Source of the DNA: Armatimonadota bacterium
Lineage (GTDB): Bacteria > Armatimonadota > Hebobacteria > GCA-020354555 > CP070648
NCBI GenBank assembly: GCA_035527535.1
Contig: DATLAK010000191.1
Coordinates: 1 to 36,785, forward strand
Direction of reading: 5' to 3'
Length of the DNA: 36,785 nt
Of the stretch, positions 34,152 to 36,172 are shown piece by piece. The notes under the pieces are model-generated. The model was not told where the DNA came from. It was given only the letters and a program-made list of their open reading frames with translations, and ran no database searches. Within the stretch, counting starts at the first letter, position 1. The number at the start of each line of letters is the position of its first letter. Made by a program: the position numbers and the translations under genes.

Positions 34152-35165
34152 ATGCTACGAGTATGCGTGATCGGTCTGGACCCTGCCGGCAATCTGCACG
34201 CCGACGCCTATCGGCGGGATAAGCGGGCACAGTTGGTGGGGGTGTGCGACAGCAACCCGCAGCGCCTGCGCGCGGCGGCGTCGCGCCTGGGGGCGGAGGC
34301 ATTCGGCGACGCGGGGGAGATGCTCGACGCCCTGCGCCCCGACCTGGTGAGCGTCTGCGCGGGTGATGATTCGGCGGCAGTGGCATTGCAGGCGCTGGAA
34401 CGCGAGTGCCACGTTCTGTGCGAGGCGCCGCCAGCGCCCGGCGCCGGCCAGACCCGCGAGCTGGTGACCGCGGCGACGGTGCGCGGGCGGCACCTGGCGG
34501 TCAACTTCAACCTGCGCTTCACCCCGGCGGCGCTCAGGGCCAAGCGCTGGCTCGCCGAGGGCCGGCTGGGAACGCCCCTGTTCGCCAACCTCGCCCTGTG
34601 GTGCGCGCCGGAGCAGGGGCTGTGCGGCGAGCGCACTTTGTGGCAGCTCGCCCACCATGGCCTCGATCTCACCCGCTGGCTGTGCGGGGATATCACGCGC
34701 CTGCACTGCTTCGCCGCCCGCGCGCCCGGGCGCGCCGAGTGGTCATCCGCGCAAGTCAACCTCGAACTCGCGGCCGGCGTCGTCGGTCACCTGACCGTCA
34801 GCCGCGACATGGCGGCGCACCATCCGCTGGCGTGCTGCGAGGTCGCCGGCACCACCGCGCGCCTGGTGATCGAGAACATCTACGAGGAAGCCACGCTCTT
34901 CCCGCACGCCGACGAAGAGAAGACCACCTACACCAACTCCATCTTCGGCGGGCTGGGGGGCTACGACGATACGTACCACTGCCGCATCAGCCGCCTGCTG
35001 GAGCAGCTCGCGGGCGGTGCTCCCGCCGGCATCGAGGGCTCGGGGCACGATGCGCTCGCCGCGCAGCTGGCGGTGGAGGCTGGGCTCAAGTCGCTGGAGA
35101 CGGGGGCAGTGGTGGAGGTGAGCGCCCCCGGCCCAACAACCGCCGGCGCCACGGGTGAACGGTGA
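34152..35165 (+). CDS. Gfo/Idh/MocA-like protein with degenerate active site
   Basis: 337 residues. It follows the family layout, and its C-terminal domain (LAHHGLDLTRWLCGD, His169/Asp172) is normal. Two key sites are altered: the dinucleotide glycine motif reads GLDPAGNLH instead of GxGxxG, and the catalytic EKP is EAP (Glu91-Ala92-Pro93). The neighbour gene, which overlaps by one base (TGATG), has GMGPIGNRH and EKP intact, and the two proteins align along their whole length (ALEREC/ALERGC, VLCE, FTPAALRAKRWLAEGRLG/FTPAAVTAKRWIAEGRVG). A non-catalytic partner of a heteromer is the likely role; loss of function is the alternative. Confidence 0.85.
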   Translation: MLRVCVIGLDPAGNLHADAYRRDKRAQLVGVCDSNPQRLRAAASRLGAEAFGDAGEMLDALRPDLVSVCAGDDSAAVALQALERECHVLCEAPPAPGAGQTRELVTAATVRGRHLAVNFNLRFTPAALRAKRWLAEGRLGTPLFANLALWCAPEQGLCGERTLWQLAHHGLDLTRWLCGDITRLHCFAARAPGRAEWSSAQVNLELAAGVVGHLTVSRDMAAHHPLACCEVAGTTARLVIENIYEEATLFPHADEEKTTYTNSIFGGLGGYDDTYHCRISRLLEQLAGGAPAGIEGSGHDALAAQLAVEAGLKSLETGAVVEVSAPGPTTAGATGER

Positions 35166-36172
35166 TGCTTAGGGTTTGTGTCATTGGCATGGGGCCCATC
35201 GGCAACCGCCATGCCGACATCTATCGCGAGGATTCACTGGCCGAGTTGGCGGGGGTGTGCGACCTCATCCCCGAGCGCGCCGATGCGGCGGCTGCGCGGC
35301 TGGGAGTGCCGGGGTTCCACGACGCGGCGGCGATGCTGGAGGCGCTGCGCCCGCAGGTGGTGAGCGTGGCCACCGGCGGATACGAGTACGGCAGCGACCA
35401 CTACCTGCCGACCATGCAGGCGCTGGAACGCGGCTGCCACGTGCTGTGCGAGAAACCCCTGAGCAACGAGGTGCCGCGCGCGCGCGAGATGGTGCTCAAG
35501 GCGCGGGAGCGAAACGTTTGCCTCGGCACCAACCTCAACCACCGTTTCACTCCGGCGGCGGTCACGGCCAAGCGCTGGATCGCCGAGGGCCGAGTGGGCG
35601 CGCCGCTGTTCATGAACATGGCGATGTGGATCGGCAATCCCGCCGAAAGCTCACCCTACTTCCACCTCAAGGCCTTGCACCCCCACACGATTGACATCAT
35701 GCGCTACTACTGCGGCGACATCGCGCAGGTGCAGTGCTTTGCCATCAAGGCGCCCGGGCGCGCCATCTGGTCCACCGCGCAGTTTAACGTCAAGTTCGCC
35801 GGCGGCGCCATCGGCCATCTCACCGGCAGCTACGACATCCTCCGCGGCCACCCCATGGAGCGCTGCGAGGTCGCCGGCACCCAGGGCCGCTTCGTCCTGG
35901 TGGACATGTACAAGGAGCTCACGCTCTATCCTCACGCCTCGCCCGAGAAAACGGTTATCACCAATCCCATCTGCGGCGGCATGACCGGCTTCTCCGACAC
36001 CTTCCGCCGCCGCCTGCATCGCTTCCTGGAACAGATTTGCGCGGACGTCGAGCCGGACGAAATAGACGGCTCGGGGCGGGACGGCCTCGCCGCCCAGAAC
36101 GTCATCCAGGCGGCCATCGAGTCGCTGGAGACCGGCCGCGCCGTCACCGTGCCGCCGCTGGGCCTGGGATAG
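35165..36172 (+). CDS. Gfo/Idh/MocA family oxidoreductase
   Basis: 335 residues. The glycine motif GMGPIGNRHAD, EKP (96-98) and HPHTIDIMRYY (His174, Asp177) are intact. ATG at 35165 overlaps the stop of the previous gene in TGATG, so translation is coupled; a GTG one codon earlier is possible. It is a paralogue of the 34152 protein and of the other oxidoreductases in the window. Its product probably handles a sugar or sugar acid with NAD(P). A strong hairpin follows its stop. Confidence 0.9.
   Translation: MLRVCVIGMGPIGNRHADIYREDSLAELAGVCDLIPERADAAAARLGVPGFHDAAAMLEALRPQVVSVATGGYEYGSDHYLPTMQALERGCHVLCEKPLSNEVPRAREMVLKARERNVCLGTNLNHRFTPAAVTAKRWIAEGRVGAPLFMNMAMWIGNPAESSPYFHLKALHPHTIDIMRYYCGDIAQVQCFAIKAPGRAIWSTAQFNVKFAGGAIGHLTGSYDILRGHPMERCEVAGTQGRFVLVDMYKELTLYPHASPEKTVITNPICGGMTGFSDTFRRRLHRFLEQICADVEPDEIDGSGRDGLAAQNVIQAAIESLETGRAVTVPPLGLG

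Follow-up and report, generated by a model that had tools for sequence, protein, structure and literature searches.

A degenerate Gfo/Idh/MocA paralog maintained beside an oxidoreductase gene in one Armatimonadota family

Two adjacent genes, A and B, occupy positions 34,152 to 36,172 of a 36,785-nucleotide stretch of Armatimonadota DNA (the window, contig C191 of a 3.24-Mb source assembly). Both belong to the Gfo/Idh/MocA family, and A has lost a set of active-site residues that its relatives keep. Judging from two sequences, A is nonetheless maintained by selection rather than decaying, under less constraint than B. We put at roughly even odds (about 50%) the reading that A is a pseudo-oxidoreductase serving as a non-catalytic subunit in a putative complex with B. 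The features on which this account draws are as follows, all on the forward strand.

34152–35165, +: gene A, full-length Gfo/Idh/MocA paralog of 337 amino acids (reading frame, Pfam, AlphaFold)
34173–34190, +: GLDPAG codons (A residues 8–13), Rossmann motif of GxGxxG type
34419–34430, +: CEAP codons (A residues 90–93), EKP motif with Lys replaced by Ala, as in the ortholog
34590–34646, +: A residues 147–165, substrate-loop/active-site entry segment, where conservation in A is lowest
34932–34976, +: A residues 261–275, TNSIFGGLGGYDDTY, among the two best-conserved stretches of A (a partly interpretive entry)
35163–35167, +: TGATG, stop of A overlapping the ATG start of B (GTG at 35162 is an alternative B start)
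35165–36172 (from 35162 with the GTG start), +: gene B, Gfo/Idh/MocA oxidoreductase with GMGPIG and CEKP

Gene pair and active-site losses in A

The coordinates, reading frames and motifs of the preliminary description were borne out by the sequence (GLDPAG and CEAP in A, GMGPIG and CEKP in B), as was the TGATG overlap, in which the A stop and the B start have one base in common. A and B share 51% identity, and each matches the GFO_IDH_MocA Rossmann and C-terminal domains in Pfam; the matches of A (PF01408, E = 1.9e-18; PF22725, E = 3.3e-13) place it within the fold family. The two-domain fold of characterized members (3ezy, TM0414; Pl-scyllo-IDH, 5YAB/5YAP; levoglucosan dehydrogenase, 6A3F-J; DgpA) extends along the whole of A and B. 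Neither protein reached a curated NCBIfam cut-off, and for TIGR04380 (inositol 2-dehydrogenase, cut-off 355 bits) A scored 80 and B 102 bits. Like the family's enzymes, B retains GxGxxG, EKP and the active-site His. By contrast, A has lost the EKP Lys along with other residues of the pocket, and both A and B are without the canonical Asp.

To describe these losses, we compared A and its ortholog A′, from a genome of another genus (G001), with 50 relatives of B type and neighbouring types, using B numbering. Position 97, the EKP Lys, is Lys in all 50 relatives and Ala in A and A′, so that both copies read CEAP and lack the Lys expected of an active enzyme. His79, invariant in the 50 relatives, is Ser or Arg in the A copies; position 126 is His in 48/50 and Leu in A and A′; position 169 is Lys or Arg in 50/50 and Trp in both A copies; and position 172, His, Asn or Thr in relatives, is Ala in both. 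A five-residue segment preceding EKP is deleted in A and A′ alike. EKP was absent only from these two among the 69 related proteins aligned, and a search of 14 genomes of the class for the CHVLCEAP pattern at the DNA level matched only A and A′. With Lys in 50/50 relatives and Ala in both A copies, the motif loss in this alignment is greater than chance would produce.

The preliminary description had called A degenerate on two counts, GxDxxG for GxGxxG and EAP for EKP. The loss of the EKP Lys stands, but the glycine deserves less weight. The second Gly of GxGxxG is Asp in A and Thr in A′ (GLTAAG), and 6/50 relatives, all with EKP intact, have Arg, Lys or Asn there, so GxDxxG alone is no proof of lost function. 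The same six relatives, an instance of natural motif variation, rule out the missing glycine as proof of lost NAD binding. Within the B subfamily, then, the second Gly is a poor marker of inactivation and the EKP Lys a good one. As read from the alignment, the telling signature of A is wider than GxDxxG, comprising K97A, H126L, K/R169W, H172A, the loss of His79 and the five-residue deletion.

Pl-scyllo-IDH was reported to be inactive when the triad residue Lys106, Asp191 or His195 was replaced by Ala, with data not shown there (PMC5969746). A carries the first of these changes, Lys to Ala. Given the inactive K106A mutant and the invariant Lys of the relatives, the dehydrogenase activity of A is very likely lost, and we regard A as inactive in this sense with high confidence. 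Gly8, Gly13, Asp33, Arg127, His174 and Asp177 are kept in A, and binding of NAD or a sugar may persist given the retained Asp33, His174, Asp177 and first and third glycines.

The preliminary description was also right that both motifs are intact in B, yet B has Ala in place of the canonical catalytic Asp, which precedes the active-site His by four residues. This Ala (Ala170; window 35672–35674) aligns with the catalytic Asp of 3ezy, leaving B without the Asp of the K-D-H triad, and it is conserved across the B subfamily, which is phylum-wide and usually single-copy. The A copies have Gln or Arg at the same position. The chemistry of B would thus also be non-canonical, and a different proton relay may operate throughout this phylum-wide subfamily. 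An invariant Lys/Arg169 adjoins Ala170 in the subfamily (K/R-A-L-x-P-H). Other tandem Gfo/Idh/MocA pairs of the B subfamily, found in four genomes of the phylum, keep EKP in all members sampled.

Distribution, origin and selection on A

G001, a single-contig assembly, is the sole other genome of the same family that we compared. A search for the pair in other genomes, as the preliminary description had proposed, recovered it there: A′ (GLTAAG, CEAP) and B′, which has both motifs intact, lie next to each other and are ordered as in the window. A and A′ are 59% identical, and B and B′ 81%. The genes are 75 bp apart in G001 and the TGATG overlap is absent, which rules out translational coupling through TGATG as a conserved feature.

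With A′ as the query, 81 of the 291 genomes searched in the phylum had matches at E ≤ 1e-60; the comparison of EKP covered the 69 aligned proteins. A-type copies occurred in 2/291 genomes, and none turned up in the remaining 289. As far as sampled, A is thus confined to one family and appears to be a family-level feature. About 79 other genomes carry B-type or close proteins without A, indicating that B has no general need of A. An A/A′ profile scanned against GTDB r220 contigs returned distant relatives only.

In the tree, A and A′ form one clade (100/100) on a stem of 0.69, placed outside all B proteins, those of the same family included (95/96). The A tips are ~3.6 times longer than B tips from the same genomes. 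A tree constrained to group A with the family's own B is 10 log units worse (AU p = 0.044). Together with the 95/96 placement, this disfavours a recent duplication of B inside the family, although long branches may cause both results. We favour an old duplication that would have been kept or acquired only in this family, a pattern that long-branch effects may mimic.

By the NG86 method, dN/dS was 0.331/0.961 = 0.34 for A–A′ and 0.122/0.949 = 0.13 for B–B′, rough values because dS is near saturation. At amino-acid-changing sites, A evolves 2.7 times faster than B. Differences at fourfold sites are about equal (0.50 for A, 0.45 for B), suggesting that the two ortholog pairs are about equally old. 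A neutral simulation matched for the number of base changes left 40% identity (maximum 46%), compared with the 59% observed, and predicted 6.6 stops where A and A′ have none; frameshifts are likewise absent from A. Thus, on the two sequences available, A combines lost catalytic residues with purifying selection on the remainder, as expected of a pseudoenzyme under selection. The earlier suggestion that A is degenerate yet maintained agrees with its ortholog's shared derived losses, the dN/dS of ~0.34, the clean reading frame and the confident structural prediction given below. It would have been contradicted by dN/dS near 1 or by truncation, neither of which was found in G001, the one relative with A.

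Shifted constraint and gene neighbourhood

AlphaFold, run with the family alignment, predicted a complete fold for both proteins (pLDDT 90.6 for A, 95.3 for B), consistent with the earlier impression that A is full-length and well folded. The top Foldseek matches of the A model were all Gfo/Idh/MocA proteins, with TM ~0.85 to NAD-bound 5yap and 6a3j. We then compared A–A′ with B–B′ site by site, taking B 61–131 and 154–188 as active-site segments. B and B′ are 89% identical in these segments vs. 78% elsewhere, and A and A′ 52% vs. 62%. The interaction had p = 0.002 by site permutation and p = 0.028 by label rotation, values that are indicative only because the segments were picked after the motifs had been seen. 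Residues 147–165 of A, about where Pl-scyllo-IDH has a flexible loop over the pocket, match A′ at only 2/14 sites; the same stretch of B matches B′ at 13–14/14. The best windows of A are 224–237 in the C-terminal sheet and the 261–275 stretch listed above, 13/14 identical. A and A′ have 21 residues in common that are nearly absent from the 50 relatives. Constraint in A therefore appears, on this comparison, to have moved from the active site to the C-terminal sheet and a loop of inter-subunit type.

Described Gfo/Idh/MocA structures are homo-dimers or homo-tetramers (PMC5969746). In the Pl-scyllo-IDH homotetramer, the active site includes His318, which is contributed by a loop of the neighbouring subunit and contacts the substrate; H318A lowers kcat/Km from 190 to 0.56 (PMC5969746). 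Counting from the C-terminus (profile 325 = chain 368 of 5ya8), A 261–275 falls approximately in the His318 region. This approximate match suggests, by analogy, a way in which a dead subunit could assist an active one. Searching the PDB with the last 96 residues of A, to fix the His318 loop alignment, gave no useful match.

In G001 and several distant genomes, B clusters with a C-type oxidoreductase, a xylose-isomerase-like TIM barrel and a sulfatase, and in G001 A′ lies between the sulfatase and B′. In the source assembly, A and B are instead on C191, 111 bp behind thiC, parted from the sulfatase cluster on contig C45. That cluster (C45, 1466–5868) comprises a C-type Gfo/Idh/MocA gene, the TIM barrel and the sulfatase (71–82% to G001), followed by a BNR-repeat (sialidase-like) protein. 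From the gene order, A and B seem to have remained neighbours after their separation from that cluster. The split could also reflect misassembly between C45 and C191; adjacency of A and B is nonetheless seen in both genomes. A functional link with the upstream thiE/thiC was ruled out: thiC of G001 lies at 2.61 Mb, ~1.3 Mb from the A′–B′ pair, making the thiC neighbourhood uninformative. In two further genomes, the gaps between sulfatase and B hold unrelated reading frames and no remnants of A. A scan for promoter and terminator consensus sequences gave no matches. Right behind B, a minus-strand frame (36275–36783) with TDNGPEY resembles an integrase/transposase catalytic region and leaves the contig end; the whole open frame had no Pfam match. 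It may relate to the relocation of A and B.

Possible partnership with B and competing explanations

If A is a non-catalytic partner, it would be a B paralog that kept the Gfo/Idh/MocA fold and lost NAD-dependent dehydrogenase chemistry. B would be the catalyst, a working sugar or glycoside dehydrogenase whose gene set in relatives adds a second oxidoreductase, an isomerase-like TIM barrel and a sulfatase. A could bind B through its C-terminal beta-sheet, the oligomer-making sheet of the family, and might position or complete the B active site (e.g., with its own conserved GGLGGY loop) or tune B activity. This partner reading, raised in the preliminary description as a regulatory or structural role, fits both the shift in constraint and the adjacency of A and B kept after relocation. 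More tentatively, and in our view at well under even odds, the pair could represent a bacterial hetero-oligomeric Gfo/Idh/MocA enzyme, in which a dead subunit acts in trans, its loop and sheet completing or controlling the active site of an intact paralog.

Some Gfo/Idh/MocA members, e.g., GH109, catalyse non-redox net reactions. A might likewise have a different chemistry that dispenses with EKP hydride transfer, acting as an epimerase, lyase or hydratase on the B product via His174/Asp177 and new residues such as Trp169. The kept His174, Asp177 and Arg127, and Trp169, Ala172 and Gly175 fixed in both A copies, would suit such an enzyme. We consider it unlikely, since the pocket-lining loop and helix 147–165 show the lowest conservation in A (2/14), hard to reconcile with a shared new site, and have no newly fixed candidate catalytic base or acid. 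Gal80 of yeast is a non-enzymatic relative of glucose-fructose oxidoreductase, a catalytically dead Gfo/Idh/MocA-type protein used as a eukaryotic transcription repressor. With Asp33 and 2/3 dinucleotide-site glycines kept, A could similarly sense a sugar or NAD(H) and act on a protein other than B. That role is less probable still: Pfam finds no DNA-binding part in A, the fixed neighbour is B rather than a conserved regulator, and the putative ligand pocket is poorly conserved.

There is little room for A as a still active NAD-dependent dehydrogenase with altered motifs. Its predicted fold is complete, and the 6/50 EKP-intact relatives with a replaced second Gly imply that NAD may still bind, but K97 is gone, as are four more conserved positions in its region, and K106A of the relative Pl-scyllo-IDH is inactive (PMC5969746). 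We most strongly disfavour A as a decaying duplicate of B. The higher dN of A (0.33 vs. 0.12 in B) and its apparent absence from 289/291 genomes are what decay might produce, but the simulation places A far from neutrality, stops and frameshifts are absent, and the same derived residues recur in two genera; the simulation and dN/dS together rule decay out.

Like Gal80, A would be a catalytically dead-looking Gfo/Idh/MocA-type protein retained by selection; unlike Gal80, it adjoins an intact paralog in a bacterial metabolic locus and gives no sign of a role in transcription. Another close parallel comes from the trypanosome prozymes of AdoMetDC (PMC5201418) and deoxyhypusine synthase (PMC3663545), in which a dead paralog activates a live one through a heteromer. 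As in those systems, an apparently dead paralog (A) is kept beside an active one (B). The folds are unrelated, however, and heteromer formation and activation, demonstrated for the prozymes, are conjectural for A and B; moreover, relatives of B occur without any A. We found no papers on Gfo/Idh/MocA pseudoenzymes among the openly licensed literature searched. The family is large and most members are annotated as active by similarity alone, and both A and B would automatically be labelled “oxidoreductase.” If the partner reading is true, a heteromer containing a dead subunit would add a new type of assembly to the family and offer a clean test case for the evolution of non-catalytic subunits.

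The source assembly has ~24 Gfo/Idh/MocA matches in all. Two further genes of the family lie in the window, one at 23811–24911 (−) beside an FGGY kinase and one at 27586–28605 (+), the latter adjoined by a dihydrodipicolinate-synthase-like gene (26645–27553).
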